From Utricularia gibba (Eukaryota; Streptophyta; Magnoliopsida; Lamiales; Lentibulariaceae), in assembly GCA_002189035.1 (NCBI GenBank), contig CM007990.1, positions 4,154,001-4,218,000 of the forward strand: a stretch of DNA of 64,000 bases. The letters are read 5' to 3'. Position 1 is the stretch's first letter. The number at the start of each line of letters is the position of its first letter. This document shows, in pieces, positions 1 through 64,000 of this stretch. Under the pieces are notes generated by a model. The model searched no databases, was not told where the DNA came from, and was given only the letters and a program-made list of their open reading frames with translations. The translations under genes were made by a program, and so were the position numbers.

Positions 1-94
1 AAAACTGAACTAAAATTTTACGAATAAAATTGGAGTTTTAAATGGAAATTATGGATGAAATCAAACACAACAAAATACATGGTGGGAATGTGAG

Positions 95-1323
95 CTACAA
101 CCGTCTTGAATATCCAGATCCTCCACACCTTTTGCAGAGTACAAGACCTGCAACAACAACACCGGCATCAGTTTGAATGCAATGTCACTGAAATTTCTTC
201 ACTAAATGAGCTTAACCTGTACCTGCACCTTTGCAAACTTTACAATCAACAACCCCTGTTTCCACCTTCATCTTGCCCTCAATGCAGAAGACGCATTTCG
301 TTCCTCCTATCCTACCAAACAACACTTTCTCAGTGTGTGGAAACCCAAAACCGCATAGAACGAACACCGTCGATCAGGATCAGGGACTGGTAATTGAAGT
401 GTAGCACTAGTGCTTCACTCAACAAGGGTCATTCAACTTCATGGAAAAGGTTTCAGTTTATAATACACTCTCTCAGTGTGTCAAACCCAAACTGCATAGA
501 ACGAACATCGCCTTTGTTGTGACGAAAAGAAAGTGCTCAACAGTCAAACTTCAAGTTAAGGATCAGGGGCAGAAAATGGAAGTGTAGCACTAGTGCTTGC
601 TTGCTTTACTCAACAAGGGTCACTCAACTTCAAGGTAAAGGTTTCAGTTTATATAATACGCACTCCTAGAAGCCAATAAGCAATGCTCTTTGAAAAAGTG
701 CATGTTCTGAAAAATGGAATTCAAAAGGCTTTCTAAGGAGATAGGATGAAGAAGTAGCTATAGCATACCGTTTCCAGCACATCTCTCGCAGGGTACAGGG
801 TCTCCCTGCAAATTCCCACACAATGATTTCAATAAGAATTCAATGTTAGCAGAAGAGGATTTCATAATCGCACAAGTATCCAATCACTCTGGGGCATCAG
901 AACTCAAAATCACGCCTGCAGAAACTTACGGAAATCAAATTGAGCATATAGATTTTAAGACTTGAGGCAAAGAACAATCAGAAACTGAAATAAAGTACGA
1001 AGCATTTGATCAAACACCTTGAGGCCAAGAAACAGGGAGGCAACAATGGCGGCCATTACGCTGACCGTGAGAACAACTGTCTGAGTATCCACCGCCGGCG
1101 ATTCGAATCCGGTGAAGAGAAAAATGGGGCGACTTGAAATCGTGGGATGAAGGCATTCGCCAAGCCGCCGCTGGGAAAGTAAACAAGACGCCGGGGACGA
1201 GGATAAGACTGGGAAATGTGAGTTATTACACGTGACAGTTTGGGGGAGAGATGAATTCATCCACAACGGTGATTCAGAAACTGACGTCCGTGGCGCCGGA
1301 TAGGGCGATGGAGTTGCTGCCAT
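95..1323 (-). CDS. DnaJ-type Cys-rich domain protein, probably plastid membrane
   Basis: Four exons (1018-1323, 769-805, 223-306, 95-147) join in frame to 159 residues. The first ~75 residues are rich in Ser, Pro and Thr with few acidic residues, like a chloroplast transit peptide. One hydrophobic segment follows at about residues 80-101. The C-terminal 57 residues carry four CxxC pairs (CERC, CVFC, CKVC, CKRC) in CxxCxGxG-like contexts, the zinc-binding domain of DnaJ type I, without a J domain. The protein ends GYSRRL. Plant proteins of this plan (LQY1, BSD2 and relatives) act as plastid zinc-finger chaperones or disulfide isomerases. I infer a similar role but cannot assign the exact orthologue. 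All exon junctions are GT-AG. The start codon is the first ATG and lies 149 bp from the start codon of the divergent trigger factor gene. Confidence 0.85.
328..660. repeat. Tandem duplication inside an intron of the Cys-rich gene
   Basis: Two diverged copies (about 328-470 and 471-660) share the words TCTCAGTGTG, GCATAGAACGAACA, GTGTAGCACTAGTGCTT, CTCAACAAGGGTCA and AAAGGTTTCAGTTTATA in the same order. The second copy is longer, with an extra stretch around 510-560. It lies wholly within the intron 307-768, so the coding sequence is untouched. Confidence 0.8.
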
Positions 1324-1472
1324 CGGAGATCAACAGCTTGAGCCGATATGTGGAGCTCCATTTTTTGCATATTTAGAAATCGTAACCCCCAAATTTTAAC
1401 AGTCACCGCACGCACATAAAAAGCTTATCCATCTCGTTAAATGTAAGCTTCCGTTCCCGATTCCCCTGAAAA
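1324..1472. promoter_or_regulatory. Compact divergent promoter between two plastid-protein genes
   Basis: Only 149 bp separate the start codons of the Cys-rich plastid protein (-) and trigger factor (+). Both 5' leaders and both core promoters must fit in or overlap this interval. I see no clear TATA box on either strand. Confidence 0.55.
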
Positions 1473-4216
1473 ATGGAAGCCTGCTTCTGCACAGCCGCTC
1501 GAGCATTTTTCCATTTCAGCGATTCCACTTCTTCATCATCTTCTACTAATTTTTCAATACCTTCATTGCCTTGTTCTTTTTCGAGCCATATCTTGGTGCC
1601 CAGCAAAGCATTTCGCAATCTCGGTACGAGAGATTTGACCCGCTTAGTGCCATCCGCTGCACCGCCTACTGCAGAGGCCCCTGTTGATATTCAAGTCACA
1701 GAAACCCAGAACCCAATTCAAGAGTCGGTTCATTTTCCCTTATCTCTTTAGACTGTGTGGCATTCCTCTATTTTCCATGCCACTGAACTCTTGAAGTTCT
1801 TCAGGTCAGGTTGAGTGTACAAGTTCCCACTCAAGTTTGCGATGATTGCTACAAGAAAGTCCTCAGAGAGCTCACAAAGAGAGCAAAGGTTTGATCTTTT
1901 TCCCCTTTTCATTTCCAATTCACAAACTAGCTCTGCCCTTGTAGTCATGGCCTCCAATTTCAGGTCCCCGGGTTTCGTCCTGGAAATATGTTCCGGAGGA
2001 TATTCTTGTGAATTTTGTAGGCAAGGATATGGTCAAGAAGGCTACTATTGAATCCATTCTGAAGACAACACTTCCGCAAGCTATGTCTTCGGTACGACCC
2101 CTTCATTCTATTGGAAGGACTCTGCTGAAGTGACAGCTGCTTTGTATAATGTCCCTTGACTCCTCTGCTACTTTTACTGGATTTTTAAATCTTTAGGTAA
2201 CTGGAAGAGCATTGGAAGATTCAATTCGCATTTCAACCAAGTTTCCTGAAATGGAGGATGCCTACGCCTCCATGAAGTCCTTGAGGTTTGTTGTGCTCAA
2301 TTCAACTGCTTTTCTTGCTGCAGAGGATTACTACTGTTTTTCCATCTTGAGTATGCTGATGCAAACAATGCTTCCATTCCGTTGCTAGATATGATATCAT
2401 TGTTGACGTTGTGCCTGAAGTCAAATGGGTGCCTGAAGATGGGTACAAGAATCTGAAGATCGTTGTGGAGATTGACAAGGAGATAGATGCTCAAACTGCT
2501 GCCGACCAAGAATTGCAACGTCGCTTGAAGGCCCTGGGCGCACTAAAAATTGTAACTTCCAGAGGACTTGAGGTAAGCAATGCCATTTCATGCACTCTTG
2601 AAACAGAATCAAGGATTGAAGGAAAATGTGAAAAATGTACCTAGGGATCAGGATCTATTATACCAGTGTAACAACTAAAAAGAACCAGGGGATGGATGTC
2701 CTTTGTGATAAGTGATAACCCCTGCATTTGCTACCTGAATTAGTATCAGCCTGAAGCTCTTTTTTTTTTCAGGTTGGTGATGTTGCAGTTCTTGACATAT
2801 CAGCTAAAACGATTGAGCAAGATGAATCGAAGGCACAAAGCATTCCATCAGTGGAGAGTAAAGGTATAGCAAAGCGTACCTTCGATTCACTAGTACATTC
2901 CAGAAGATTTCTAAATGTTGTAAAACTCATGCATTGCCATCCCTTAGGTTTCCAGTTCGACACAGAGAATGGGGATGCAGTCCTGCCAGATTTCCTAGGC
3001 TCTGTTCTAGGGATCCAAATAGGTGAAATAAAGACATTCTCGTATGTGTTTCCTGATACATGGAAACAAGAAGCTCTTCGTGGAGTTCACGCTCAGTTTA
3101 CTGTAAGCTCCTTCAAAATGAAATCTTATTTTAGGATGAAGCACTGTATCCAGTGTGAGAACTTCCTAGATTTGGCGCTCCTAGGTAGAGTGCAAGGAGC
3201 TGTTCTATAGAGTTCTTCCTGAACTGGATGACTCCACTGCAGAAAAAATTTTACCTGGTACCACAACAATAGCAGACGTAAGTCGTTTGCCTCTGTATTC
3301 ATGGCATTGTATTTGCCTCAGCTACCGACATTCTATTTCTAATCTGCAGGTTAAGGATTCGTTACTGCAAAAATTTCTTGAACTGGAACAAACAGCTAAG
3401 GAACAAGCAACAGACAATGCAATTCTAGACCAGCTACAAAAAGTATGCCTCTGTAACTTACTGAATGCTGAAGGAGGAGCATCTTCGCTTGCTTTTGGTT
3501 GACTGATACGGAATTTTCTGCATTTTCGACTTGTCATAGATGGTTGAAGTTGATATTCCTCCATCTTTGTTTGAAGAGCAAGGCAGAGAGCTCTATGGAG
3601 CACAACTGCTTCAAATTCAGGTAAGGACCCTTGTGGATTCAGCCTTTTTTTTCGCAGAGTTGTTTCACAGAGCATGAACATAACATCATCCAATGCTTCT
3701 TAGCAGAAGCTATCCAGTCCGCTTAAAACTGGGTTCTGTTTTTCAGGCAAACAGCAAGCTAAGCGAACAGCAGTTGGCATCTCTCTCAAGTCCAGGGGCA
3801 GTGAACCGGTTCCTGGAAACTCAAAAGGATAACATCACGAACATCATCAAGCAGAATCTAGCCGTAGGCGACATTTTCAAACGCGAAAACCTGCAGGTAG
3901 ACAATGAAACCCCCATGAAGATACCTAATCCGCTCCTCCTACACACATCCTAAGTTTTTCATCGTGGTCAACCAGATACTGACGGAGGAGCTCGTAAAGG
4001 AGGTTGAGAATTCGATCGTTGAATTCAAGCGCTACGACCAAGAATACGACGAGGAGCGCGTCCGATCACAGGTAACAACATTTTCGATATCAATAGTCCA
4101 CATTCGCTCCGGGGATCTTGAACTCCGTTTACCCACAGGTGCAAGAAGTTCTGGAGGGAGCGAAGGTCCTGGAATGGCTGAAAGTACGTGCAGATATCCA
4201 GTACATTACCAAGTAG
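1473..4216 (+). CDS. TIG: Chloroplast trigger factor-like peptidyl-prolyl isomerase/chaperone
   Basis: Thirteen exons: 1473-1727, 1805-1888, 1964-2091, 2197-2285, 2389-2572, 2773-2863, 2948-3102, 3185-3277, 3350-3442, 3540-3620, 3747-3896, 3976-4071, 4139-4216, about 525 residues. The Ser-rich first ~60 residues fit a plastid transit peptide. Next comes the ribosome-binding N domain with the VPGFRPG signature (exon 3). A PPIase region follows, with the segment VLPDFLGSVLGIQIGE near residues 285-300. A long helical C-terminal domain ends the protein. Trigger factor binds nascent chains at the ribosome tunnel exit, here on plastid ribosomes. Every exon but one keeps phase: exon 3 is 128 nt, one short, so the frame breaks between VPGFRPG and VPED (AAA at 1984-1986). 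The conserved frame resumes at once and stays open to the stop. I read this as a sequence error or a very recent lesion. Confidence 0.9.
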
Positions 4217-4746
4217 GGCATCCCGCACATATGCAGTACAATGTTTTTTCTTTTCTTTTTTTTTTTGATAAGAAACATAATTAATTTGAAATTATGTTTA
4301 AGATATGAATTATATAAATATACATTTAAAATGATATTATGTTTAATAAACTCATTTGAAATATATGAAAAAAATATAATTTTCTTGGATGAAAAGTTTT
4401 GAAAAATCACAAGTATTTTACAAATCATATATCAAATAAATGATATTATCATTATATATATAAAAAAAATGATTGATAATATAGTAGAGAAGATTTATAC
4501 CTAAATTTTTACATAAATTACAGTTTGATTAAACAGCATATGTATGTCAATTTTGTATAACTATATCATTCACATATTTATTTTTTGAACATATAAATAA
4601 TATATACAAATAAAAGGTGAGATTAATTATATCATATTAATCATATTATTATTCTTATATATCAAATGTTATATACAATTGAATATGCACATATATATAT
4701 ACTCAATTACACTATACCTAAGCATGCATACATTACTATGAAATGA

Positions 4747-4784
<38 letters not shown>

Positions 4785-5076
4785 TTATTTATTTAATAAC
4801 ATAAATAAAATTTATCAAATATAGTTTTAGTAAATTTAGATACATTAATTAATTTAAAGGAGGCCGTGGTCTGAGTGGATTGGGCCTCATATCTGGGGCC
4901 CAGGTTGATTTTGGTTGACTGCTGCTCATCGTTGTCGTCACACCTGAGTCCCGAATTAGGGTTTGGGATAGCCGCATAACATGAAATCTGTATTCGATTT
5001 TATCCCCTTTCGTTGAGTTGCAATTTGCAGTTAACTGAGGCGCGTGGGGCGTGGGTTAGCTGGAGGAGGATCTAAG
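4217..5076. other. AT-rich intergenic DNA
   Basis: No coding signal. It contains the 3' flank of the trigger factor gene, a long AT-rich tract (4260-4850) and, from about 4855, less AT-rich sequence that should include the promoter and 5' leader of the CCHC gene. Confidence 0.6.
4751..4800. repeat. (AT)n microsatellite followed by (TTTA)n
   Basis: An uninterrupted AT dinucleotide run of about 15 units (4751-4780) is followed by TTTA repeats to about 4795. Confidence 0.9.
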
Positions 5077-7466
5077 ATGGGAAAAAGGCAGAGGAAGTTG
5101 AAATCGGCGGAAGATACGGAGGAAGATGGGAGAACGAGCAGAACAAGAATTGTCGCGAGCAGCGATGAGGAGGTTGATAAATATCTGCAATTTCATTGTC
5201 GTCGAAGGACAGAAGGCGCCATTGATCTCGTTACGGATTCGAAGAAAGGGGGGAAAAGACGGAAGACGAAGAGAAGAAAGGGTATAGACGATGCCGTTGT
5301 AGTCAAAGTACCAGAAGATCCGGTAAGCACTCTTTTTAGGATTTTTGCAGTGGACATTATATGGGGCTCTGGCGCAATAGTTGTACTTCCGTTTTTGCAC
5401 TTTTTTCCAGGTAGAAAACGAAATAGATCCCGAAAACAAACTTAGCTCTGTGGAGTTGATTACGGTATTTCATGTAAAAGTTGCTTAAGCTTTTTGAGTT
5501 GAGCAGACAGTATTCGAGATTGCTCTCTTGCTTCGCAAACGCTGAGTTTCCGATATGTGGGATTGCACTGGGTCAGTTTCTGGTTTGCTGATTGTGGGAG
5601 CATGCCGTCTAGGGCTTACTTTTCTTTCAAAGGGAAATACATGGATTCAAATTTTTTGAACACGAAAGTTTGATTTGTTATTTGTAAAATACATTGAAAC
5701 GTGTTCTATTTTTACTATTGGTTGTTTTAGTTCTTTTTATGTTGATGGAGATTGTATCAGGAGAATTATATATAGTAAAAAATGCACAAAGGATGAGCAT
5801 GATGCTGGCTCTGAGTATTTTTTTTTTTTTTTTCTCCGTGCTCAGTCAGATACATTAGAAGACAAACAAGAGAAGGATAATGCAACTGATATTTCTATCA
5901 ATGCATTTGAGTCGAAGCCTGGTGAGAAATCAGAAAATGATGTCCTGCGGAAACTTCTTGTGAGACAAAACTCTCTCCTAGCCACGCATAATCAGATAAC
6001 CAGGGCACATATCCTCATAGTCATTGTTGTGCCAGCGTGGTCCTAGGTACTTCGATCCTCCAGATACAAGTTGGGGAGCGTGCTATAATTGTGGCGAAGA
6101 AGGTCATACAACGATCAACTGTCCTTCAGAGAAGCGAAGGAAGCCTTGTTATGTCTGTGGCAGCCATGATCATATTGCAAAGCGCTGTAATCGGGTGGGT
6201 TTCTTTAAAGTGAACTTTATATATAAATATGGAACTGTCATTTTGTATTGGATGCTATGTCCTATATGTGATGTTTGGCAGGGTCTAGATTGCTTCATTT
6301 GTCAGAGTAAGACTCATCGTGCAAGGGATTGTCCTGAAAAGCAGAAGACTTCCAAGATTTGTCTAAAATGTGGGAATTCAGGACACACTATGTTTTCCTG
6401 CAGAAGTGAGTATTCTTCTGAGGATCTCAAGGTACCTGTTCTCATAAATTACATGGTTATATTTTTTCTGTACACAGTTGAAAAACTGCTTGTTTTCCAT
6501 CCATAGGAAATAAGGTGTTACGTTTGTGGTAAATTTGGCCACATGTGCTGTGCGGATTATAGCGATCCTGGCCCAAGGGAGATTTCCTGTTACCGGTGTG
6601 GTTTGTCTGGCCATAATGGTTTGGTTAGTCAATTCTTTATTCCAGCTTTAGAAGTTGAAGATCTTGGACTCTTAATGGAGTTAAAAAAACATGATCCTTG
6701 TGCTTTTAGCTTTGAGTTATTGATAAATTTCATAAAGTTGTTTTCCTGGTTGATTTGACTCTAATTCTTCAATTCTTTCAGTCCTGCAAAGGCTATGACA
6801 GTGAGACAGTTACCGTGACACGTGACAACTCATGTTTCAATTGTGGCTTACGTGGTCATTTCTCCCGTGAATGTACAAGTTCGAAGAAGGTTTCTTGCTT
6901 CTCTTGAGTTATGTAATTATGCCATTGCCTCATTGTGACGCCACTGATTTGTCTATTAGGCTGGTAAGAGGAAAAGTGAACCGTCAACACCAAAGCAACA
7001 ATCTCCCATGAAAAAAAAGTTCCCTGGAGATATCAAGTCCGTGCCCATTGATCCGAGCAAGATGATTAGAAAGAAGAATCCTCTCATTCCGGTATTTGTT
7101 TCTGCTGGGAAATCAAAACAAAGTGGTGGGTGGGTGGCTGAACACCCCGATGATGATATGTATAGAGGTAGTAAAAGGAATGTAGGTTTCCGCGAATTGC
7201 CCCATGACCAAAGATCAAACGGTCATTATGGATTCTCAACTCCCGGTCCTCCCCAGAACCATTTCCAGAATGGATTTGCATACAGAGGATCTAGGATATC
7301 CACTCCTGGTGATCACTATGGGCTATCGACTCCAAGTCCTTCCCATAACTATTACAGGAATGGATTCCACAGCTCTGCATATAATGATTCAAGTGGATTC
7401 TATCATGAGAATGGGTTCTCGGCTCCAGGGTTTATCCAAAAGGGAAGACGCCATGGGCAATGGTAA
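5077..7466 (+). CDS. CCHC zinc-knuckle protein with seven knuckles
   Basis: Eight exons: 5077-5322, 5411-5464, 5846-5959, 6036-6194, 6282-6431, 6507-6623, 6782-6889, 6960-7466, giving 484 residues with all phases consistent. The N-terminus is Lys/Arg-rich (KKGGKRRKTKRRKG), a likely nuclear signal. The centre has seven knuckle-type Cys clusters, beginning CYNCGEEGHTTINC, CYVCGSHDHIAKRC, CFICQSKTHRARDC and CLKCGNSGHTMFSC and ending CFNCGLRGHFSREC. The C-terminal third is rich in Gly, Ser, Asn and Tyr, with repeated YGxSTPxP motifs. The arrangement resembles yeast Air1/Air2 of the TRAMP nuclear RNA-surveillance complex and plant CCHC proteins of the At3g43590 type. RNA binding is inferred. The ATG at 5077 begins MGKRQRK. 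No in-frame ATG lies just upstream. A donor-like GTAAAG at 7462 suggests the 3' end might also be spliced differently. Confidence 0.85.
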
Positions 7467-11139: not shown

Positions 11140-11735
11140 TAGAGTCCGGCCGGTTCCCGGTTCCTTTTTTTTTTTTTGGAAAAATGGTTTTTTAATTCAC
11201 AATATTTTACATATTTTTATTTTATAGTCAAATACTTTAATTTATATAAAATACAGTCAATAAGTTTATCAATAAATTCAATTTATTACATATCAGTTAA
11301 AAACTATTTTAAAAATTTTTAAAATTTGAGATAAATATTTTTAAAGAGAATTAAAATTTAATATACATTTTTAAAAAATATTGTAAAATTTTAAAAAATT
11401 ATTCAAATTATTAAAAAAATTAAAAGTATCATAGAATAAATATTAAAAATTGAGAAAAATAATTTTTAAAAGTTTAAAATATTTAAAAATATATATTGAA
11501 TTTTAGTTCTATTTAAAAACATATATCTCAAATTATAAAAAAAAATTAAAATATTTTTTGACCGAAATGACATAAATTGAGTTTATTTGTAAATTTGTTG
11601 ATTGAATTTTACACAAGTTAATAATTGAAATATTGTGACTTAAAAAATGATTTTTCCCTTTTTTTTTCTGGTTCCGGGTTATGGAAACATTAGAATTTTG
11701 AAGAATCGAATCTAAACCAAATCCAAAATCACAGT
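11140..11735. mobile_element. Degenerate relative of the hAT-like element at 43982
   Basis: The left side begins TAGAGTCCGGCCGGTTC, nearly the terminal sequence of the intact element near 44 kb. The right side shares GGTTCC, TAGAATTTTGA and the CGAATC word in the same order as its interior. The two parts are separated by about 480 bp of AT-rich DNA and no matching second end or flanking duplication is visible. I regard it as a decayed or interrupted copy. Confidence 0.4.
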
Positions 11736-11772
11736 TGTTCAGTTCTATCTTCTGGGATTATGAATATTTTTT

Positions 11773-11827
11773 AATGGTGTGGGTTTATTGCAGTTTGGAT
11801 CGGTTCAATGGTGTGGGTTTATTGCAG
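11773..11827. repeat. Two exact 21-bp direct repeats, 34-bp period
   Basis: The 21-bp word that starts AATGGTGTGGG and ends TTATTGCAG occurs identically at 11773-11793 and 11807-11827, in the 3' flank of the F-box gene. Confidence 0.9.
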
Positions 11828-11904
11828 CGCGCTGTATGACATGAATTCTGTTTGGTAATAAGCTTCGTACATGGTGGGTTCAATGAAATCCATCTACAAC
11901 GATG

Positions 11905-15449: not shown

Positions 15450-17218
15450 ATGTGTTTGAATAGAAAAGGTGATGAGGCAATGTTGCCCCATGAGAGCATT
15501 GATTCACCATCTGCGGATGATGACGACAGCGGTGTAAACGGAGGATCCAACAGTCCGGTGAAGAAAGGCCCCTGGACTCCAAGAGAAGATGAGATTTTAG
15601 TTGATTATGTTAACAAGCATGGAGAAGGGAACTGGAATGCAGTGCAGAAGCATACTGGTCTCTCTCGCTGTGGAAAGAGTTGTCGATTGAGGTGGGCCAA
15701 TCACCTTAGACCAGACCTCAAGAAAGGGCCATTTTCTGAGGAGGAGGAGCGCCTAATACTCGAGCTCCACGCAAAGATGGGAAATAAATGGGCACGAATG
15801 GCGGCCGAGGTGGGAATGTTTGTATTCTATATATCCATGGATGCTCTATTAGCACTCGAATTCCATTGAATTGCAATTGTCTGCAAATATTGAGATGTGA
15901 ACTCTCTTTTCCAAAATATGCCTGCTTTTTCTTTCAGCCCTTTTGTTCCTAGACTGAAATTGGTAGTCATTGTTTCTTGTGTTTGCGCTAATTATCAAAT
16001 GAAACAAGTGTTCCTTTTCTCTGGCCCTCGTTTTCTTTTTCTCATGTTTCGTTTGCTCTTTCTTGTTTAGTTGCCCGGGCGCACTGATAATGAGATAAAG
16101 AACTTTTGGAATACTAGGATCAAAAGAAGACAGAGAGCTGGCTTGCGAATCTACCCGGAGGATGTCTGCGCAGAATTTAGGAATGAGAATCAAGGTGATG
16201 AGATAGATTCCCATTCAACTGGACAAGAGTATCCTTCAGAGGTTGCGGCATTCGAAGGCTTTGAGATACCAACTGTTGAATTCCACAGTCTCAGTCAACC
16301 CCTATATTCTTCAAAACTTATTTCCTCTATCAAGATTCCAGAAATTCCAGCAAGACTTATTTTTGGTCAAGGCCGTCAGCCTTGTTATGGTGACAGATCT
16401 GTGTGCTCGACCCTTCATTTGTCCAAGCCTCCTCCTGTGCCCGAATTGCTTTACAGCAATCATAATAATCCTACATTTGGCTCTTTCACAGGTGTGAATA
16501 ATCTCACCGGGATGGTTGTTTGGAGATTGGTCAGCCTCTTGGCTTCTCATCTTTCTATGATCATGACTCTGTTTCAGATCAGGCGATCTCCCCAAACCTA
16601 TTCCCTGACGATCATACCATGTTAACCGATACCTCTGAGCTCCCTTCACTCCAAAATCAGGTTGGTGGTTGGGGCATACCCACACCCTCATTCCCAATGC
16701 CTGTGTTTCACGATACTTCAATCCAAACTACTCAAGTTGAGAACACATGCATGTTTCCACCGCCAAACAGTGGCCTCTTGGATGATGTCATTCATGAATT
16801 AGAAGCTAACTTCAATACCAATACCTTCCTCTCCCCTGGGACTTCTTATGACCCTACATTGGTAGCTCATATGGTGAATGATTCAAATCAAAATGCCCAT
16901 GAGAATGTCTGTGGGTACGATATGGTGTCTCCTGTTGGACTTTCATCTCCATCTGCTTTATATGATAGCTCTCCGTTTAGTATCAACTCATTTGAGGAAC
17001 CAAAAGATGCAAATGTATTCCAGGTTTCCACATTCTCCCCTCTCTGTCATAGTATTGGTCAATGCTTTTGATTGTTTGCTCATTTCTGACATCCGCTTCT
17101 TTGTTGCTTGGAACAGGTGATCACCCCACCCCTTCTTTCTCCTAATGGTATCTTTCAAGAAGAAACAAGAGATGCAGGTAGTAATGCGAATTCGACCATG
17201 ACAAGATCTGCCTGGTGA
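15450..17218 (+). CDS. GAMYB-like R2R3-MYB transcription factor, miR159 target
   Basis: Three exons: 15450-15809, 16071-17023, 17117-17218; about 471 residues. The R2 repeat starts [20 protein letters not shown] and R3 follows ([20 protein letters not shown]). Exon 2 opens [20 protein letters not shown] and RAGLRIYP, the hallmark of the GAMYB subgroup (MYB33, 65, 101). Such factors activate gibberellin-responsive genes in anthers and aleurone and are repressed by miR159, whose complementary site is present at 16635-16655. The conserved frame changes at GGG 16509-16511: the upstream frame gives [11 protein letters not shown] and the downstream frame [14 protein letters not shown]. One extra G restores a continuous protein. 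Start: the first in-frame ATG (15450); an additional upstream exon is possible. Confidence 0.88.
16635..16655 (+). promoter_or_regulatory. miR159 target site in the GAMYB-like mRNA
   Basis: The segment CTGAGCTCCCTTCACTCCAA and the following A encode ELPSLQN. It matches the canonical GAMYB miR159-complementary site (core GAGCTCCCTTCA-TCCAA) with the central cleavage region (CTCCCTTCA) intact. Cleavage by the miR159/AGO1 complex is the known fate of such transcripts. Confidence 0.85.
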
Positions 17219-21763: not shown

Positions 21764-23621
21764 ATGGTGGGAGGAGACTATATTTCCCTCAAAATCCTAT
21801 TAATTGTTTTGTGTGCTTCGGCGGCTGCTGTCGAGTGCGGGGTAGGGGTAAACTGGGGTACGGTGGCCCTTCACCGTCTGTCGCCGAAGACGGTGGTGGA
21901 TCTTTTGAAGGAAAACGGGATTAACAAGGTGAAGCTGTTTGATACTGACCCGGATGTTTTAATGGCGTTGATGGGCAGTGGGATTGAAACCATGGTTGGA
22001 ATTCCTAATGAGATGCTGGCGACGCTCAGCAGCTCCACTGCCGCTGCTGATTCCTGGGTTTCTCAGAATGTTTCAAGATATATTGTCAAGGGAGGTGTTG
22101 ACATCAAGTATGATTCTTTCTTTCTAATTTTGTGTTTCTTCGTGGAGCTCCCTTTTTTTTTGTGTGTGTGTATTCACCGGAGAGGGTAAGGGTTTATTGC
22201 CTTTCACTTTGATGTGACATGTTCGCAAGAGGGGTTTTTGATTTTCATGTGACTGAATCCATACTTGATTCGAGTCCTTCGAGTTGTTAAGCTTTTTCTT
22301 AGGGAGCCATCTGGTTTCATTCTAGTCACTTAGCTTGGATTTAGCTGCATTAGGAGAGCAACAACCGAGTCTTTTTAGACCGCAGTTTGAGTTTTCTTGT
22401 TAGGGAGATTTCTGATTTCCTTGATATTGAATCCACACTTGTTTCAAGTCTTATTCTGCTTGAATTTTCTGGGTAATGCAGATATATTGCAGTGGGAAAC
22501 GAACCATTTCTATCAAGTTTTTCTGGTCAGTTCCAATCCTACGTTCTTCCTGCTTTGATGAACTTACAGCAGTCTTTGTCCAAGGGTAATCTTGCTGGAC
22601 TTGTGAAGCTTGTTGTACCGTGCAATGCTGATGCCTACCAATCTTCACTGCCATCCCAGGGAGCTTTCCGGCCTGACTTGACTCAGCTCATGACACAGAT
22701 CGTTACCTTCCTCAACTCTAATGGTTCACCCTTTGTAGTGAACATATACCCATTCCTAAGTCTGTATGGCAGTTCAGATTTCCCTCAAGACTATGCATTC
22801 TTCGAAGGCTCCACGCACTCGGTTACGGATGGACCAAACATCTACTCCAACGCATTTGATGGAAATTTCGACACACTGGTTGCTGCACTCTCAAAACTCG
22901 GCTTCCCCAAATGCCAATAGTCATAGGGGAGGTTGGATGGCCGACTGATGGGGCGTTCAGTGCCAATATAAGTGCTGCAAGGGCTTTCAACCAGGGACTC
23001 ATAAACCATGTTCTAAGCAACGCGGGAACCCCTCTAAGACCAGGTGTGCCTCCTGCGGATGTGTACCTGTTCAGTCTCCTAGATGAAGGTTCAAAAAATG
23101 TGCTCCCTGGTAACTTTGAGCGGCACTGGGGCATATTCTCATTCGATGGGCAGGCCAAGTATCCACTGAATCTCGGAAAGGGGGTGCTAAAGAATGCCAA
23201 GAAAGTTGAATACCTCCCTTCCAGATGGTGTGTGGCGAATCCTACTCGAGATCTGTCTGCCGTGGGCAACCACTATAGGCTTGCTTGTTCTTATGCAGAC
23301 TGCACCACGCTCAGCTATGGAGGATCCTGCAACGGAATCGGGGAGAAGGGAAACATATCCTACGCATTCAACAGCTACTACCAGTCCCAGAAGCAGAATC
23401 CTCAGAGCTGTGAGTTTGATGGACTTGGGATGGTGACTTTTTTGGATCCTTCAGTTGGTGATTGCAGGTTTCTTGTTGGGGTCAAAGACATGGCTTCTTC
23501 TTCTTCTTCTTCTTCTTCTTCCTCCTCTTCCTCCTCCTCCTCGTCTTCATCATCACCTTCCTTGTGGTTGAGTGGTTACAGCATGCTAACCTTGATAGCC
23601 CTCTCCTTGTTTCTCATTTGA
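21764..23621 (+). CDS. GPI-anchored glucan endo-1,3-beta-glucosidase with X8 (CBM43) domain
   Basis: Two exons (21764-22107, 22482-23621), about 494 residues. A hydrophobic signal peptide (LKILLIVLCASAAAVECG) precedes the mature GVNWGT start typical of GH17. The catalytic region contains VGNEPF (acid/base Glu) and VIGEVGWPTDG (nucleophile Glu). After it come an X8 domain (WCVANPT... with paired Cys) and a Ser run of about 20 residues. A hydrophobic tail, WLSGYSMLTLIALSLFLI, fits a GPI-anchor signal. Such enzymes hydrolyse callose at the cell wall or plasmodesmata; the X8 module binds 1,3-glucan. The frame breaks between KLGFP and MPIVIGEVGWP at AAA 22909-22911. One extra A gives the conserved KLGF-(P/x)-K-MPIVIGE order. 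All catalytic residues survive on either side. Confidence 0.9.
23494..23566 (+). repeat. Coding TTC/TCC microsatellite (poly-Ser linker)
   Basis: Repeated TTC then TCC/TCA triplets encode the Ser-rich linker between the X8 domain and the GPI signal; read in another frame they would encode Phe/Leu. Such a run is prone to length change. Confidence 0.85.
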
Positions 23622-27607: not shown

Positions 27608-28668
27608 TCAGAACGAGCTGGTTCGTCGAAGTTGGTACCGGCGTTTTGGGTCAGGGAGCATCTCTTCAAATTCCTGCGAATGTAAGGGAAATGTATCAGT
27701 GAAAATGAGCACTGTCCAGGGAAAAATAAGCTCTTCCATTGCTGCACCATTGGAGAATTTGCTCACAGAAGAGCTCTAGTCAGTATAGGAAACAAAAAAC
27801 ACTGAGCTGATGTATACTCTCCTCAGCTTTTACCTAAGCTTAAGAGCTGGGAAGCTAAAGGTAAACACAAGTGCACAGAACACTGTCTTAAGAGTGAGTT
27901 ACACTTGCCTTTTCCTTCTTGAGCTTCAAGTTTTCTTCTTCAAGACAAGAAACTTTGATCACCAATTCATTGTGGTAAGCCTGTAGGTCCAATGTTTTCC
28001 AAGAGATCAAGAAACCTTGTAAAACTAGTTAAATTCAATGAGATGTATGAAAATCCTGCCTGCTTTCTTGCGCGAGAGCGAGCAGCAGACTCCCTGTTCT
28101 TTATCTTTCGTCTTAGCCTTCTCTCAATACTCTTCTCAAATTGCCAAGATCCCTTCTCCTGGCCTGGAAGAGCCAATGGATCTTTGGATGGTGAAGGCGA
28201 AAACCCTGTTTCAGGTGAGAACTTGTGAGACTTCAGTGCGCTATCCAATGACATCACAGGTTGGATGGATGATGCATTGGTCACACACATCCCCGCTTGA
28301 ACCAAAAAGCCCTCTAAAGTCATTTCTCCAAGAGTTGGCATACTTTCTTGGCTCCAACTCTCCATCTTGCATCCATGCTGAATGTCTTTCCACAGTTCAT
28401 CCACCGTTTTTCCGTTAAATGCTTTAGCAAGAGACCAACTGGCTTGACGCCGGAGAGAGGCTGCAGGGGAAGTGGCGTGACTGTTGGCATCAGGCGAATG
28501 AACTGCCTCCGATGTCCATATATTCTCAAGCAACTCATCCAAACTCATGCTGCCTAGTGACTTCCCCATGTTCCTTAAATGGTTTTCAACTTCACAAAGT
28601 GTAACTCCTAGCCATGAGTCATGCTGTGCAAGCGGCTCTTTATGAGAATTCATTCTCTGAATTCCCAT
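27608..28668 (-). CDS. ABI5/DPBF-like group A bZIP transcription factor
   Basis: Three exons: 28060-28668, 27909-27980, 27608-27673; 248 residues. It contains the conserved N-terminal blocks of group A bZIPs: SWLGVTLCEVENHL, SLGSMSLDELLENIW with SIQ-like neighbours, RQASWSLAKAFNGKTVDELW and GEMTLEGFLVQAG. The basic region RRLRRKIKNRESAARSRARK is followed by a short leucine zipper and the tail MLPDPKRRYQLRRTSSF. Such factors bind ABRE (ACGTG) promoter elements in abscisic-acid and seed responses, and SnRK2/CDPK sites occur in the first blocks. Both introns appear to begin with GC rather than GT (CAG|GCAGGA at 28059, AAG|GCAAGT at 27908). Using them is the only way I find to keep the conserved frame. 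A leader intron probably ends just 5' of the ATG. Confidence 0.9.
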
Positions 28669-31019: not shown

Positions 31020-31708
31020 ATGAGGAAGACGAGGAACCGCGATGCAGGAGATGCCGGGAATGTGAAGAAACGCAAAGTTGAATCGGATGATGAGCCAGTG
31101 GCTCACGTCTGCAGGGAGTGTAGTCGAAAATTCAGCTCGGGGAAGGCTTTGGGAGGACACATGAGCCGTGCTCACGTTCAGGTGAATGAAGATCGGCAGA
31201 AACGGCGGAAACCGAGGAATTCTCGGAAGAAAGGAGGATCGGGTGAAGCCGTTTGCGCAACTTGTTTGCGGGTTTTCCGTTCTGATAAATCATTGCACGG
31301 TCATATGAGGTCCCATCCTCGTCATACTCGGAAAGATATGGATCCCAAGCTGACTCTCGCACTCGAAGCTACGCCCGATCCGGAGTTGGAACGGATGACA
31401 ATCGGCTTGGAGATCAAAGGCTTCAGCAGTGTGGATATCAGCGCCGCTATACTGCTAGTTGAAATGAGAATCGGATTCTACTCTACGGACACGGTGCCAA
31501 GAAACCAGGGATCCGATTCGATTGCAGCGCTGAGTACCGGCGATTCTCATTCAGTCGGCGGCGTGAATTTCGCAACCGAAACCCCGTACAGCCACCCGAG
31601 GAGATTCCCCGAGATGTTAGGGCGGATCCTCGATCGATGAAGTTCAGCATCGATCTCAACGTCCAAGCGCCGCCGGCGGATGGTTCCGACGATCCTTGTT
31701 CGGAATAA
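31020..31708 (+). CDS. C2H2 zinc-finger protein with two plant-type fingers and EAR-like end
   Basis: The ATG at 31020 starts MRKTRNRDAG. Two fingers are clear: CRECSRKFSSGKALGGHMSRAH and CATCLRVFRSDKSLHGHMRSH. The first has the plant KALGGH variant of the QALGGH motif. A basic linker (KRRKPRNSRKK) may be a nuclear signal. This frame closes at 31640 (ending GRILDR). However, the frame shifted by one base is open to 31708 and ends KFSIDLNVQAPPADGSDD, an EAR-type DLNxxxP repression motif common at the end of plant C2H2 proteins. I therefore think the true protein changes frame between 31463 and 31610 and ends at 31708 (229 residues if one base is missing). Likely a nuclear transcriptional repressor; the exact family is not identified. 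Confidence 0.7.
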
Positions 31709-45658: not shown

Positions 45659-45948
45659 TCAGAGCATTTCTGGAGGTTTGGGAGAGCCTCCGAGGATGCA
45701 GGGGATAACACACTTGAAGTCCTCCACGCCACAGGTTTGATAGCACAAGGGTCGACTGGTTGGGCACCGCATTTGACAACACAAGCCAGAGCCGTCATTC
45801 CACACTGCAGCACACAGTTCAGACCCTTCATCCAGCACGCCAGACACGGCTGCTGCCCCGGCGCCGGAGCCGGATCTGGAACTGGAGAAGTACTCTCCGC
45901 CGCCGCGGAAGCAACCACCAGCATAAGCAAGAAAGCCACTCGACGCAT
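45659..45948 (-). CDS. Small secreted Cys-rich peptide
   Basis: A single exon starts MRRVAFLLMLVVASAAAE, a signal peptide. A Pro/Ala-rich spacer (PVPDPAPAPGQQP) is followed by a Cys pattern C-x2-C-x6-C-x3-C-x6-C-x3-C and further Cys residues. In the initial frame the pattern stops at CAIK. The neighbouring frame continues CGVEDFKCVIPCILG and stops at 45659. One extra base in TTT 45736-45738 (AAA in the gene) joins them into a protein of about 96 residues. Two helical hairpins with CxxxC pairs would fit a thionin- or hairpinin-like defence or development peptide, but I do not recognise the family. It lies convergent to calmodulin. Confidence 0.6.
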
Positions 45949-46784: not shown

Positions 46785-49641
46785 TTAACAGACTCTGTTC
46801 CCAACAGTTTGATACAAAGATTTAAGCTGTGTGTTCCATTTGTCAATGGCAGCATACTTCTTGTTTCCCTTCGACCTGTACTTGCATCATTCAGAGGTCA
46901 GGCGCACAGAAAGCAGTGGAATGGGCAGCAGAAAGAATGGAGCTAACCTGTCGCCGCGTTCTAGTAGCCGGTTCACTTGATCGATGTGGCCCTGGATTCG
47001 GTTGTCTAAGATGAGAGACACCAGCAACTCCTCCACATCCTTCTCTGGCACATTCAGCTCCTGCGGTCACAAAATTATGAGGTATCAAGATGGTGTGTTT
47101 AATGAAAACAAAACAAAGCTGAGGGCATGGGTTCTGTTGTACTGTTGATATGAAAGGGATACGGATCCTTGTATATGGCTTTATGAGCTTCAACAACACT
47201 TGTGTCCGCACATTCTTTAGAAGGTCTTCGATATAATTCCTAATGAATAGGTCATCCATTATAGTCCTCCGGTTGCTCTGCATCAATAGAAATCCAATGA
47301 TAAGGAGAATCGAGTCTCTCAGAAGTGTAATATGCACTATAGTCCTTGCGTTGGCTTGTTCACCTTCAAAATTTTTTCAAATTCCAATATCTCATTCCTT
47401 TGGTATGCTGCAATGAGGTTTGTCATGGCAAGAATCTCAGGATCATTTTTATACCTGAAAGAATAAGTGCAATGGAAAGGTGTTAGAGAAAACTCTTTCC
47501 ATCATCATTAGCATGCAATATTCAATTGATACAATGATAGATGAGCTACGAGAAAGATCACATCCATTCATGATTTTATTTTACTGCAACCTACTCTATC
47601 CCGTAGCTAGTGTAAAAATGTGACCCCCAATCTCATACATTATTCTGGATGCTGTTGTATCGTAAAAACGTTTGCGAGATGAGTGGTCAAAATTTTTAAA
47701 AAAAACTTACGGTTTCGCCTCTTGACCATCAAAAGGGTTCACTTGTGATTCCATGAGCATGTTTGCCAGGACCAAATACCTGCGACACAGGCTTAACTTA
47801 AATTTTCTCATTATATCAATAAAATACGTTATGTGACATCCACCACAAATAAGATGCAACAAAAACAGAACCCACTGAAAAAAAAAAGTATCACGTGAAA
47901 CCATCACAACTCAAAACACGATCTATACTAGTGAATCTCATCAACAAAAACTAATGGCTAGCAATTGAAGGTGCTTTAGTCTGAGGAAGTATACGGATGC
48001 AAAATAATGGCATACTTTAGACACTGAATACGTCTCTGGTTTCCTGCTTCATCATAATTTTTGAAAGCTTCAAAGAAATCAGTAGCTGCATCTGGCCACT
48101 GTCTCTCTGCCATATGCATTTTTCCACCACATTCACGAATAATTCCCATGATTCTGGGATGAGGAATAGCAGATTTGACTGATAGAGCTCTATGATACAA
48201 TTCCTGGAACAAATTAAAGATTTGTAAAAAACGAAGCCTGATACTCGACTCCAGCATTCAATATACCTTCAGTTTTTTATTATTCTTAGTCTCTGTGTAC
48301 ATCTGGATCTCAATTGCATACACTTCCAGAAGCTGCGTGCCTTTCTTCTGATCATCAGTACCATCTTCTTTTTGGCAAGATTTGTGAAGCTCTTTCAGAA
48401 TCTGATCAGACATAGAGAGTAAGTTTTACACCAAAATCAGCTGCAACTTTTATTTCAATATACCTTGTTCATGCGACCATATTCACCCATGTCAAACCAT
48501 ATTTTGCATAGCTTCAGGTTTGTTTTGAACCACAGCCTCTGTGAAGAAAAAAAAATAAGAGCATTCACAATTCTTTAGAATCGAACAGCATAATTCCCAA
48601 GTTTGAAATTTTTTTAAAAAAACTAGCAAAGGAGCACATACCTCATTCTTTGCCTCTTCAAGAGCCTTTAATGTAGTCTGATAAAATTGTTGTAATAAAC
48701 TGAAGTTTTGGCTTGCAGATCCTGATATAAAATCCATGATGCTGTTTATGCATTTCTCACTATAATTCCGAGTCACTGCAGTCTTGATATATGTCAACAT
48801 ATCTCTGTAAGAATCCATCATTTCCTTGTACTTTCCAAGCTTATAGTAAAGCTTGACGGTTTGCTTCAAAGCTTTAAACCCCTAAAATGTAAACAAAATC
48901 AAATGACCAATGATTTCAATTCATCATAGAATAAAAAGAGTAGCTAAAATGTAATTTTTGGGATTCTGCTCAAAATGACCAAAGCAGATAAGTAACGCAA
49001 AGGGTACATAGTCAAAGAACAAGAAATTCTAAGCTTCGTAATTTCAGCAAACAATCACCATTCAGCCTTTTCAGGTTCCATCCGAACAACTTCAGCAAAA
49101 CCCTCAAGCGCACCCTCAGGGTCTGTTTCAACCAAGCCTAAAGCAGAAGAAAATTAATAAAGAACATCAGAAATAAAAGAATCTCAAGTGAGACTTTATA
49201 TCCGAACAAACCACTGCTACATGAACACAAAAAATAACACAACTCCTGCCCTGATCAAATCATTTGCCGGTTGTGCTCGTAGCCGGTTAAGGTGGAATGT
49301 TTTACCACCAAACTAATCCCGTATAATGTCAAAATTTCATAGCAGACCACTTCACACAAAATACAATAACACAGTACATGGTAGGATGCCAAATTTTGGA
49401 ACGGACACCAAGCCGAGTTCTCGACAGCATTCCCACTCTATTTCCCAATATGATCATGTAGTTCACATTTAAAGCAAAAATGTTCTACCGGAAGCAGTAA
49501 AGGGGGAATCTGAATATGGTACGGAATCCGTATAAAATCAAAGCTAATAAATTCACCTTTAGAATTATAATACTGATTTTCGATATCAACATCCTGCTCC
49601 TCAGGCTCTTCATCCGAGTATTCAAACCCGTAATCCTCCAT
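46785..49641 (-). CDS. CSN2: COP9 signalosome subunit 2
   Basis: Eleven exons (49557-49641, 49059-49137, 48642-48881, 48464-48538, 48267-48401, 48016-48203, 47711-47779, 47364-47454, 47143-47277, 46948-47060, 46785-46875), about 433 residues. It starts [16 protein letters not shown], then TPR-like helices ([40 protein letters not shown]), [20 protein letters not shown] and a C-terminal PCI/winged-helix domain ([20 protein letters not shown]). CSN2 (FUS12 in Arabidopsis) is a scaffold of the CSN complex that removes NEDD8 from cullin ligases in the nucleus; it repressed photomorphogenesis in the dark. Exon 2 ends in phase 2 (TG), and exon 3 begins GGG TTT, so W-G-F needs one more G at the acceptor run 48879-48882. 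Everything else keeps frame. Confidence 0.92.
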
Positions 49642-50015
49642 ATCCGCGTCTGCATCATTTCGAACAGTTAAAGATTAGCACAATGAGCCCTAAGTTGAAA
49701 AAAGAAATCGTAGAAAACAAGGTCAAATCCACGGCGAAGAACCACCGGAACCCATCGCGTATTCCGTCACTTCCTTTCCACCGGACTGCGCGTGAGACGA
49801 GCGAGAAAAGGACTACACTCCAGAAAATTACAAAAGGAAAGAAGTGCAACAGAACAGTAAAGTTTCACTCATCTCGATTATGGGCTTTCCACATATTGGG
49901 CTTTGAGCTCAATAAATCCAAGCTCATTCATCCTGCACATGAATAGAAATTTCTAAGGCCCAAACAATCAAATGCTCAATTTTATCAATTCTCCAGTTGA
50001 AACTCCCACAGAGAA
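49642..50015. promoter_or_regulatory. Divergent promoter of CSN2 and the methyltransferase gene
   Basis: 374 bp between two divergent start codons, GC-poor to neutral with no repeat; no clear TATA box on either strand. Confidence 0.5.

Positions 50016-55598: not shown

Positions 55599-55603
<5 letters not shown>

Positions 55604-55629
<26 letters not shown>
55604..55629. repeat. (TA)n microsatellite
   Basis: About 13 TA units in the gene-poor region. Confidence 0.85.
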
Positions 55630-56676: not shown

Positions 56677-56724
56677 AAATATAAATGATATAAATCAATT
56701 AAATATAAATGATATAAATCAATT
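56677..56724. repeat. 24-bp tandem duplication
   Basis: AAATATAAATGATATAAATC and the next four bases AATT occur twice in direct succession with no difference. Confidence 0.85.
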
Positions 56725-58528: not shown

Positions 58529-59684
58529 ATGACGGGAGAGGTGTCTTTCTGCTGCTTCCGCCGCCGTGCCATCGCGATGGGAAAACCGGCACCCGTGGAG
58601 GCATCGGAAGCCTCGGCGATGAAGGAGTTCTTTCAACAAATGGGAGATCTGAAATCCGTACGATTCACCAAGCGGCAGCTCGACGCATTCACGAATAACT
58701 ACTCCAAACCGATTGGCTCCGGCGGTTACGGAAAAGTTTACAAAGGCGAGCTGCCCACCGGCGTCGTAATCGCCGTTAAGGTCCTCACGGAGAGGAAAAA
58801 CGTGAAGAGCACTTTCATTTCGGAGGTGTCCACTATAGGAAGGATCCGCCACGCAAACCTCGTGAAACTCTACGGTTACTGCTACGATCCGTTATTGAAA
58901 GCTCTGGTTTACGAGTTCATGGAAAAGGGATCACTGGACAAGTACCTTTTTACGGAGGATTCCGATTGCCTGATCCCGTGGCCGACATTGCTCCAAATCG
59001 CGGGGGACGGGAAAGGGATTAGCTCATCTGCACGAAGGCATTCAACCGAGACTTATTCACTACGATGTTAAACCGGGAAACGTTCTCCTCGATTGCGATT
59101 TTTCAGCCAAAGTCGCCGATTTCGGGCTCGCGAATCTCTGCAACGCTGACGGTTCCCACGCCAGACTCATCGGATGCAGGGGAACGCCGGGGTATCTAGC
59201 TCCGGAGTTTATACTGATGAACTCTCCGATATCGCATAAGTGCGATGTTTACAGCTTTGGGATACTTCTGTTTGAGATTGTGGGGAGGAGGAGGAACACC
59301 CGAATTGGAGAAAGCGGTGAGAGTGAGAGCATCGATTGGTTTCCCAAGAAAGTGTGGGAGGAATACGAGAAGGGGGAATTGGCGGCTCTAATAGATAGTA
59401 AGGGGGTACCGGAGGAGCACAGGGCGGCGGCGGAAAGGGTGGCGGTGGTGGCACTGTGGTGCGTGCAGGACTCGCCGGAGGCGCGACCGGAAATGAGTGA
59501 TGTTGTGATGATGTTGGAGGGTCGAGCAGAGATTTTGCGGCCACCCCCGAGGCCGTTCCGGTACATGTATTCTTTGGAGAATACCCGGCCGCCATCGTCG
59601 GATTGGGATGGCGGCGACTCGCCAACGTCTTCCTCCTCCAATCAAACCCCAGCTGTTACTCCTAGTTCAAGTGTCTTAAGGTAA
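58529..59684 (+). CDS. Receptor-like cytoplasmic Ser/Thr kinase, LRK10L-like, non-RD
   Basis: Intronless, about 385 residues. The N-terminus (MTGEVSFCCFRRR) has no signal peptide or membrane segment but has a Cys pair that could be acylated. Kinase motifs in order: GSGGYGKVYKG (glycine loop), VIAVKVL (lysine), HYDVKPGNVLLD (catalytic loop in place of HRD, so non-RD), ADFGLANLC (DFG) and APEF. The catalytic loop HYD/HFD, the RFTKRQLDAFTNNYSKP lead-in and the LGSGG-like loop resemble LRK10-type (leaf rust kinase) receptors without their ectodomain. Upstream frame ends in GDGKGISSSARRHS at 59071, while the other frame continues GKGLAHLHEGIQPRLIHYDV. The change falls in the G-run 59002-59006. I read it as two missing bases (or one extra) and one continuous kinase. 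Confidence 0.85.
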
Positions 59685-60168
59685 ATAAAACGTATTAACT
59701 TAAACCAACTCTTCATTTCTGTTCATCTACTCCATAGAAACGTGGCCGAGTGTCCGACCGGACACGGATCACATGCAGTGTCTATTGTATAGCCTATAAA
59801 TGAATTTATTCTCCTATTTAGTTATATATTTGGTTAAATTTATTAAATATTTTGAAAAATTATATAAAATGATCAATTTTTATTATTCTGTAAAATAAAT
59901 GCAATTCTTTGACTAGAATTGGTCAAAATAATTTAATTAATAATATATTTGAATTATGTAATATTTAAATAATATATTATATTTAATATATACATTTTAT
60001 AAATGTGTATTTAAAGTAATAGTATATCTGATATATGTATTTTAAATGAATAAAAAACTAACTATTATTAAGAAAAAATGAATAATAGTTTTCAAAATAA
60101 TGGTTTTAAAATCATAAATAATTTGCATTTAATAATTTCATTTATTGATTTAGGGACACCGAGGTTCA
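59685..60168. other. Convergent 3' flanks
   Basis: AT-rich, no coding signal. It carries the 3' UTRs of the kinase and SHI/LRP1 genes. Confidence 0.6.
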
Positions 60169-61097
60169 TTAGTTTAAAGGGTTTCCATATTTCGTCACTT
60201 CCATTCCGCCCCCGCCGGCGTAGATATCGGCGGGGAGGGGCGCACGATGTGAGGAAGAAGCTGCGTTGTTCGTGTTGCCGCCGCTGAGATGCAGGTCTGG
60301 TAAATTTGGAAGCCCCTCTCGTGCCTCGACTCCGTGGTCGTACAAAAAGCCCCTGAAAACATGGCCGCCGATTCGCACCACCGCTTGGTACGCGTATTGA
60401 TCTGCGTCGTCGTCCAAAGCAGTTACTCTCACGCACTTGAACACCGCCGGAGCACGCACTTGCCCCGGAAACGACGATTCCCCAAACCCCCACCTACAAA
60501 GGAGAACCACAGATCACATGGTTGAAATTTACACTGCATCGCACAGTCGCGGGAATTGCAATACCTTGTTGTATGGAGATGGTGTCAAAGCTTCGTGTAG
60601 GGTGGTGTTGGATGCGGAGGTGGTGTTGGTGGTTTCGGACGCGCCGCCGAGCTTCTGTTTCTTGGAACCGGAGGTTGACTGAGAGGATGCGGCGGCACGG
60701 TCGCGGCGGCGGGCGGCGGGAACCCATGTGCTTTTCACATGCGTGGTGCAGTCAAAGCCACGGCTCTTACAGCAAGTTCTGCATCTCTGGTGAGAGCAGT
60801 CTCTCTTCGCCTGGTTTCCGCAGTCTTGGCAACTTGCCATTGCGTTCGAAGCTTCAGGAATGATAGGCTTCGTGGAGGAACTGCTGCTCAGCCTCTGCCC
60901 CTGTTGCTGTTGTTGCCAGAGATGCATTCCGAAGCCGATACTACTGCGGCGGGCCGACATCCCCTCCTCAGACGCCTGCAGCGTGGGCGCATGACACGGT
61001 GCGGCGGTGAGAAGAGGGATGACCCCGATGGCGACGTTTGGGTCGAAGGTGGAAACACCCTCCGGCGCAACGAAAAAGAATTCCGGCGGAACCCCAT
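60169..61097 (-). CDS. LRP1: SHI/STY/LRP1 family zinc-finger transcription factor
   Basis: Two exons (60565-61097 and 60169-60493), about 286 residues. The RING-like zinc finger [20 protein letters not shown] with the following CKSRGFDC is fully conserved, followed by [13 protein letters not shown]. Exon 2 contains the IGGH domain ([32 protein letters not shown]). [11 protein letters not shown] in the N-terminal region is specific to LRP1-like members. SHI/STY proteins activate YUCCA auxin-biosynthesis genes and control gynoecium and lateral root development. The frame needs one extra base at three sites: after MGFRR (61083-61084), before [12 protein letters not shown] (60600-60602) and in the G-run [12 protein letters not shown] (60487-60491). 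The ATG at 61097 gives [14 protein letters not shown]. Low-complexity Gln, Ser, Asn/Thr and Gly runs surround these. Confidence 0.9.
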
Positions 61098-63188
61098 GGC
61101 GAGAACCCCCCACCCCGAAGACCACATTCCTAATCCAAAGCAAAACCTCCCGGAAACCGGAGATTTGCGGATCAGTATATCAAAATCGTTGAAGATCCCC
61201 TGTCTGCACTCAAAAGCCGCAGAAGGTGGCAGCTACTGCAACTTAACTGCTGCTGTAACTTTTGGGTCTTCCCTTCCCTTCCCTTCCCTCCGCCTGCAAA
61301 AGCAATAAAAGGGGGAGAGCCTCTGAGGATTGAAGAAGACTGGAGGGAAGCGGAGCTCTGAGGATCAGAGAAAGAAGAGAACAGAAGTGATGTACATATA
61401 TGATTGCAGAAAACACATACAACTCTGTTTCTTTCACAGATTTGATTGCAGCAACTCTGTCTCTCTGTGTATGCAACGCTGCAAGCACTAGGCACTACAG
61501 AGAGAGAGAAGAGTAGGGGTGTGTGTGTGGTGGTAGTGGTAGGGACCTCTCTCCCGTAGCTTCCTTTCTGCACAGGCTCTTGCTTGTTTGCTTCCTAATT
61601 ATTGGAGCATGGCAAACAAGATAGGGAAAAAAAAAAAAGAAGGGGCCGGGTTTTGCCCTTTCAACCTTCTGGGCCCCACACCACCCCCAGGGGTATGTAT
61701 GGGATTTCCCAGACTTCGAAGGGAGGGTTTTTTGGTAAATAAATGTTGGATTTTTTATAAAGCTACCTATGGAATATATGCATTTGATTTGTAATTAAAT
61801 ATTTGCTATAATTTTAAATCAAAAATACAAATGTTATAATTTCCAATCCTCTGTTTTTGGGCCACAGTCCATTATTTTTAATGTTTATAATAAGATGAAA
61901 AATTAATACTAAAAATAATCTTTTTTCTCGAATATTGGAAGTATATTATCACTATCTACAATAGATTTATATAATATTATACACTTCATTCATCCAATTC
62001 TTAGAAAATGAAAACCTTCAAATGGTTGGGTTTCATTAATTTGATATTATATTTCATTTTACAAGTAATAACGAAATGCGTGATTGATTGTTTATATTAA
62101 AATGTTAATTTTAATAATATTTTATCGTTATACTCTTATTAATTGATAAATGTATAAATTTTGGTTGAGTGAAAAGTCAAAACATACAATTATCATCTCA
62201 ATTTCACAAAACCCACCTTCTTGATAGATAATTAAAAATATCCAAAACCCAAACTTAATAAAAAAATCTACATTTTTGAAACGGGTCATGGGAAAAGAAT
62301 AACACTTTATCAAGTGATCATTTCTTTTCCAACCCAATATATTTATAATGAATACCCACGTACAAAATGTATTCTTGCGGTTTTACATTCTTTTCTTTTA
62401 AAGAAAAAAATCTTATAAGATTATGAGTATTCTTTTATTTAAACATTTATTTACTCATCTATAACCAATATGAGATATCATCATTAATTTCTTGACTTAA
62501 TAAACTTTATCTTCTAAATATTTTCTAAAAATAGTATTATGTAGTTTTATTCCTAAGTTGTACAATTACAAATTTTTAGATAAGATCATGAATTCTCAAA
62601 ATGAATGTTGTAAAATGAAAATAGGAAGTATAATAAAAATGATAAATAAAAATGAATTAATATTCTATAAATTTTTAAAAAGATTATAAAATGAAAAATA
62701 TGATCGATTAAAAATGAAAAGTTATTTTATAATAATATATAAATGACAATTCACCTATATATTTGATGTTAGAATGAAAAAGATATTTAAAGAAATAAAT
62801 TGCAATATATAAAAAAATGTATTATTGAAATGAGAATGGAAAGTAGAAATGATTCATTTTGTATTTATATGTCATTTTTTAGAATTTATAATCACTTTTT
62901 GGAAAATAATAAACTGTTTTTGTATAATTACTAATTTTCTTTTTTAAAAATAAAAAAATAGTATTTTGAATGTGTAGACAATAATATTAGTAAAAGAAAT
63001 TGGGGTCTTGATGATGATGCGGCGAAAGCGACCGCGATATAATTTTGACTTTTTTATTATAAAATATTATTTGTTATTAAATTATTTGAAAAAGGAGAAA
63101 ATGACAAAATAACCACGAAAATGATGATGATTTAAGGAGCTCCTTTCTTGAAGCAAGAACTTGAAAAAGAGAAAAAGTGCCTTCTTCA
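61098..63188. other. SHI/LRP1 leader and AT-rich intergenic DNA
   Basis: 61098-61610 is probably the 5' leader and proximal promoter of the LRP1-like gene, with GA/CT-rich (GAGAGAGA around 61500) and GT-rich tracts. 61780-63050 is AT-rich with no coding signal. 63051-63188 precedes a probable new gene. Confidence 0.55.
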
Positions 63189-63669
63189 ATGGTGAGTCCA
63201 CTGAACTTCCTCCATTTTTTTTCTTTCCGTGCTTTGTTTCTGAGGTTTACTTCTTCTTCGTCGATTCATTGAAGTATCTTTCCTCTCCCGATCTCCATTC
63301 AAGAACTCATATCGTGCTTTTCTCGGCGGGTATCCGTTGATTCCGCCGGGATCACCGGAGTATCCGCAGTGGCATTTCTCTGACACTCATGTGGGCCTGG
63401 CGGTTTACTGTCACACTGCTTTTTCAGTTTTGAATGTAGCTTCGGTTAATATTTTAAGGCCCCTGTCGGCATTCGGAGAAAAAGGATTGTTCATATGGTT
63501 TTGACCGGGTGATCGGATTTAGTCGAGAGGTGATAGGGAATGTGGGGTTTGGGTTTTAGGGTTGGTTGGGATAGTGGCAACTTTCTTGATGATGTGGTGA
63601 AACAGAGGGAGGATGAGCAAGTATGATGGCATCAGAGCTGGTGGGTCAGCGGAGAAGGACATCGAACAG
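63189..63669 (+). CDS. Probable 5' end of a gene cut by the window edge
   Basis: A leader-like segment ends at AATG|GTGAGT (63192 donor). A later exon has a short open frame starting MSKYDGIRAGG at 63613 and ending at CAG|GTGAAG (63669). The 57-nt exon MSKYDGIRAGGSAEKDIEQ contains no recognisable domain and the gene continues beyond the window. It could be leader sequence only. I cannot assign a function. Confidence 0.3.
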
Positions 63670-64000
63670 GTGAAGGGTTTTATTTACATTCATGTGCCAA
63701 TTATGAGGTTTGGCATTTTCATATTTATTCTGTTTCCTCTGAGTGTCGTATATGTCACTGGAATCTGCAAATTGAATACTCTGTTGTCTATGACATTGCA
63801 TACCGCCGACATCCTTACTTTTCTTCAAGTGTAATGTGTCGCGTTCTGTTTTATGATGCCATGGTTCTGCGTCTCCCGATGAGATTGTTTTGGGTTGTTT
63901 TGTGATGCACCCACACTTTTAAGGCTTGTTTTTTTTCATTGACAATTAGAGTCAATTCAATTCGTCACTGTGAGTCTTAGAACATGTACAATTTTCCTGG

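Follow-up and report, generated by a model that had tools for sequence, protein, structure and literature searches.

Reading frames in the window

The window, i.e. the whole stretch of 64,000 nucleotides analysed here, covers positions 4154001-4218000 of contig C2 of the Utricularia gibba genome, which in the version analysed comprises 100.09 Mb in 516 contigs. Eight of its genes carry about ten frame breaks. They encode a trigger factor (TF)-like protein, GAMYB, a beta-1,3-glucanase, a C2H2 zinc-finger protein, a Cys-rich secreted peptide, CSN2, a receptor-like kinase and SHI/LRP1. Three-frame reading of these genes revealed that nearly every break amounts to one base missing at a short homopolymer. 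To keep the conserved frame, the number of bases in a short run has to be altered in the TF, GAMYB, glucanase, CSN2, kinase and SHI genes, and very likely in the C2H2 and Cys-rich peptide genes as well. The evidence varies with the site. Intact second copies are available for SHI and GAMYB, and splice sites guide the reading of CSN2. The glucanase, TF and kinase frames were judged from motifs that we take to be conserved in the respective families.

On the plus strand, the VPGFRPG frame of the TF-like gene, a motif presumably conserved in the family, resumes as YVPEDILVNFVGKDMV after AAA 1984..1986, one base short. The frame then reads cleanly from 2000 to 4230. A profile search with Pfam PF05697 did not recover the trigger factor. 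GAMYB has lost one base at GGG 16509..16511 in exon 3 (plus strand), as seen in the alignment to its second copy on contig C451. In the glucanase gene (plus strand), the missing base belongs to CCCC 22905-22908 or to AAA 22909-22911, and the frame resumes at MPIVIGEVGWPTDG. The break in the C2H2 gene (plus strand) lies near CCCC 31607..31610, the exact base being uncertain; it was deduced from a DLN (EAR-type) C-terminus found in the next frame. Similarly, the minus-strand Cys-rich peptide gene is read in the frames DPC and CYQTCGVEDFKCVIPC, which places a break near CCC 45749..45751, with both the run and the exact base uncertain.

The identity of CSN2 is supported by a match to PDB chain 9is6_B, COP9 subunit 2 (E=3e-6 over 23 aa). 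Its exon 2/3 junction on the minus strand reads TGG GGN TTT and is one base short, either at the acceptor GGGG 48879..48882 or at the donor GG 49058-49059, while the remaining exons are in frame. The upstream ATGs of CSN2 at 49653-49658 lie in a different frame from the conserved protein start, so that either another base has been lost or an internal ATG is used. In the kinase gene (plus strand), the frame changes at G5 59002..59006, between LLQIA and GTGKGLAHLHEG. The preliminary description had placed a deficit of two bases here; the break at this run stands, but one extra base would also fit. SHI/LRP1 (minus strand) was likewise said to be broken at three sites, and alignment with its intact copy on C451 bears this out, with one base missing at each. 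The first lies at the gene start in GGGGTGGGGGG (GGGG/GGGGGG, 61106..61116) and the second in exon 1 at CCC 60600..60602, preceding the conserved RSFDTIS..QQG exon end. The third lies at the start of exon 2 at GGGG 60480..60483, after which the frame is open to the normal stop. Pieces of the SHI, glucanase and kinase proteins gave no PDB match at strict thresholds.

The window-gene frames read contain no nonsense codons and, with the exception of the kinase, no out-of-frame indels of several bases. The F-box/WD40, TraB-like, CNX6, calmodulin and bZIP genes have clean frames, the first three in agreement with the preliminary description. Its central observation, that conserved frames are broken at short runs and mostly by a single base, was reproduced by three-frame reading and by comparison with the C451 copies. 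A methyltransferase gene was placed at about 50.6-51.7 kb on the plus strand. The bZIP gene apparently contains a GC-AG intron inside the basic region (28059-28063). Furthermore, a repeat of approx. 490 bases at 11178-11666 occurs in many copies in the genome. It resembles an inverted-repeat element (MITE-like or foldback) in that it aligns to itself in both orientations, and the same holds for the segment 23907-24397.

Second gene copies and conserved genes

One explanation of the frame breaks is real pseudogenisation, in which the plant itself has lost the frames, in line with the gene loss known for its lineage. Genome doublings followed by fractionation are known from this species, and a block at C451:278399-303843 is a syntenic second copy of the window, shrunken to about 25 kb compared with 57 kb. 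It retains copies of SHI, GAMYB, zinc-knuckle, EF1B and calmodulin genes, so that several of the affected genes have a second copy. CSN2 is an exception, since a DNA search of the genome did not find a second copy of it. Compared with the C451 copies, the window SHI gene is one base short at three separate places, between which the frame is conserved, and the window GAMYB gene lacks one base relative to a copy that is open over 325 aa. The C451 zinc-knuckle copy has a one-base loss of its own in a G run at which the window copy is intact.

The same lesion was found in genes under strong purifying selection. In a panel of exons from five HSP70, five HSP90, 11 actin and 11 calmodulin genes (31 kb in total), the frame is broken seven times: twice in HSP70, three times in HSP90, twice in actin and never in calmodulin. 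These breaks affect 2/5, 2/5, 2/11 and 0/11 genes, respectively, i.e. six of the 32 genes or copies. All seven are one-base losses, six of them in C/G runs, which make up 43% of the available runs of at least three bases (p=0.03). Such a predominance of deletions with enrichment in G/C runs is the signature expected of PacBio data. In the four affected HSP70 and HSP90 genes, the sequence after the break is free of stops, and 83-92% of its substitutions fall at third codon positions. Thus, selection acts on the frame which, according to the assembly, these genes have lost. For the GAMYB and SHI pairs the third-position share is 0.40-0.49, as these genes evolve too fast for the count to be decisive. 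One HSP90 gene (C255:3188450-3190060) combines two one-base losses with in-frame 9-base deletions, one of them in the conserved GYEVLFMVD, and may be a degenerating copy.

True decay has a different appearance. A plastid-derived psaA with many stops lies beside an intact-looking psaB on a 267.5-kb contig that is probably mitochondrial (C515:69900-74700). The pair had been considered as an organellar ground truth and was dropped because this psaA is a truly decaying copy. Like the window genes, it shows frame changes in a conserved gene; unlike them, it has accumulated many nonsense codons, indels and scattered changes. In view of this difference, of the stop-free window frames read, of the three separate losses in SHI, of the lack of a second CSN2 copy in the DNA search and of the lesions in HSP70, HSP90 and actin, real pseudogenisation is very improbable, as the preliminary description had already supposed.

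Loci assembled twice

A genome search did not find a near-identical duplicate contig of the window. Elsewhere, sections of two larger contigs are present again in small ones, a section of C304 in C241 (31 kb) and a section of C244 in C245 (38 kb). Taken together, the two pairs show 11 one-base indels and a single substitution in 18.9 kb. C304 and C241 show five indels (C4/C3, C3/C2, G3/G4, G4/G5 and T7/T8) and no substitution over 9,903 bases, C244 and C245 six indels and one substitution over 9,002 bases. Seven of the 11 indels concern C or G, and only one, a lone C after G6, lies outside any run of its own base. In natural variation, by contrast, substitutions outnumber indels. A neighbouring 1.9-kb HSP70 stretch differs between C304 and C241 by about three substitutions and no indel, and therefore the two contigs are not mere copies of each other. 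The comparison implies about one error in every 3-4 kb of each copy, although the quality of the small contigs may perhaps be below average.

A tandem HSP70 copy present in both contigs (C241:16450-18400 and C304:2235700-2237600) carries a frameshift, ACC-ATGAG versus ACCTTTGAG, that is identical in the two and lies outside a plain homopolymer. It is a candidate for a real mutation. As it is common to both duplicates, some frameshifts in this genome need not be errors.

If the duplicate contigs were alleles, their differences, almost exclusively one-base changes and mostly in runs, might reflect a mutator state in which frequent homopolymer slippage alters alleles and genes alike. Slippage, however, should mainly affect the longest A/T runs. 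Those of 8-10 bases in C304 and C241 agree save at most for the one T7/T8 difference, whereas C/G runs of 2-5 bases differ, and essential genes would be broken. Such a state is even less credible than gene decay. A mutator restricted to short C/G runs, e.g. through a repair defect, whose fresh one-base deletions are tolerated through second copies or corrected during expression, deserves no greater credence. Ribosomal frameshifting or RNA editing that restores the frames during expression would fit the resumption of conserved frames directly after short runs, but is the least likely explanation of all, as the sites differ in base, length and gene with no common motif seen, such sites also distinguish duplicate contigs in arbitrary DNA and paralogues do without them.

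Probable consensus errors and their known parallels

One-base losses predominate in the window, the frames read lack nonsense codons, and lesions of this class are spread over unrelated genes genome-wide and occur between duplicate copies of one locus. For these reasons the window breaks exceed chance. Judged from the sequence, they most probably represent consensus errors of a long-read-only assembly, to which we assign a probability of roughly 0.96. This explanation is favoured because the duplicates differ almost solely by one-base indels and because losses of this kind also occur in HSP70, HSP90 and actin genes. The DNA of the plant would then most likely contain intact genes. Consensus calling would have dropped one base from short homopolymers, mostly C/G runs, with a genome-wide frequency of about 0.2-0.4 sites per kb. 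Inside an exon a dropped base would look like a frameshift; elsewhere it would pass unseen.

The preliminary description had blamed undercalling of short A, C or G runs by unpolished long reads. Homopolymer consensus error is upheld by the duplicates and the panel, and the runs are indeed short, but the losses favour C/G, including runs of 2-5 bases, and the assembly was probably self-polished. 'Unpolished' should therefore probably be replaced by 'not, or insufficiently, corrected with accurate reads'. The published U. gibba assembly was built with HGAP from 88-fold PacBio coverage and has an N50 of 3.4 Mb in 581 contigs (PMC5793159), including 'Unitig_8 (6.8 Mb)' (PMC8333044). The version analysed here is most likely such an HGAP build including Quiver self-polishing; with 516 versus 581 contigs, it differs in version or filtering. 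About one error per 3-4 kb is a high rate for an 88-fold Quiver consensus. The sizes of contigs C1, C2, C409, C505 and C515 are exact multiples of 500 (8500000, 6192500, 2492500, 3452500 and 267500), which might stem from consensus calling in windows with trimming of contig ends.

From about ten sites in approx. 26 kb of window coding sequence, itself a rough, uncomputed figure, and seven in the 31 kb of the panel, we arrive at one false frameshift for every 2.6-4.5 kb of coding sequence. Roughly 20-40% of the gene models may be cut short or broken up, i.e. about one fifth judged from the panel and two fifths judged from the window. Where gene loss, pseudogenes or selection are claimed from reading frames of this assembly, the claim needs to be backed by reads. 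The significance of our observations is confined to quality control, as a warning on the use of this genome: they concern a known kind of sequencing error and no new biology.

Watson and Warr reportedly pointed out in 2019 that indel errors in long-read assemblies break gene predictions genome-wide and lead to false protein truncation (as cited in PMC9985148). The present case is alike in that gene predictions are broken across the genome. A closer parallel in detail is the Quiver-polished P6-C4 assembly of Streptomyces albus SM254, in which 205 residual indels, nearly all in G/C homopolymers, were corrected with Illumina reads (PMC4832174). In both cases one-base indels outlast self-polishing, reside mostly in G/C runs and cause false frameshifts. 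In contrast to S. albus, the genome studied here is that of a plant, the per-base rate is higher and the direction in coding genes is loss. Moreover, the bacterial errors were corrected by Illumina sequencing, whereas those presumed for U. gibba were recognised by comparison within the assembly.
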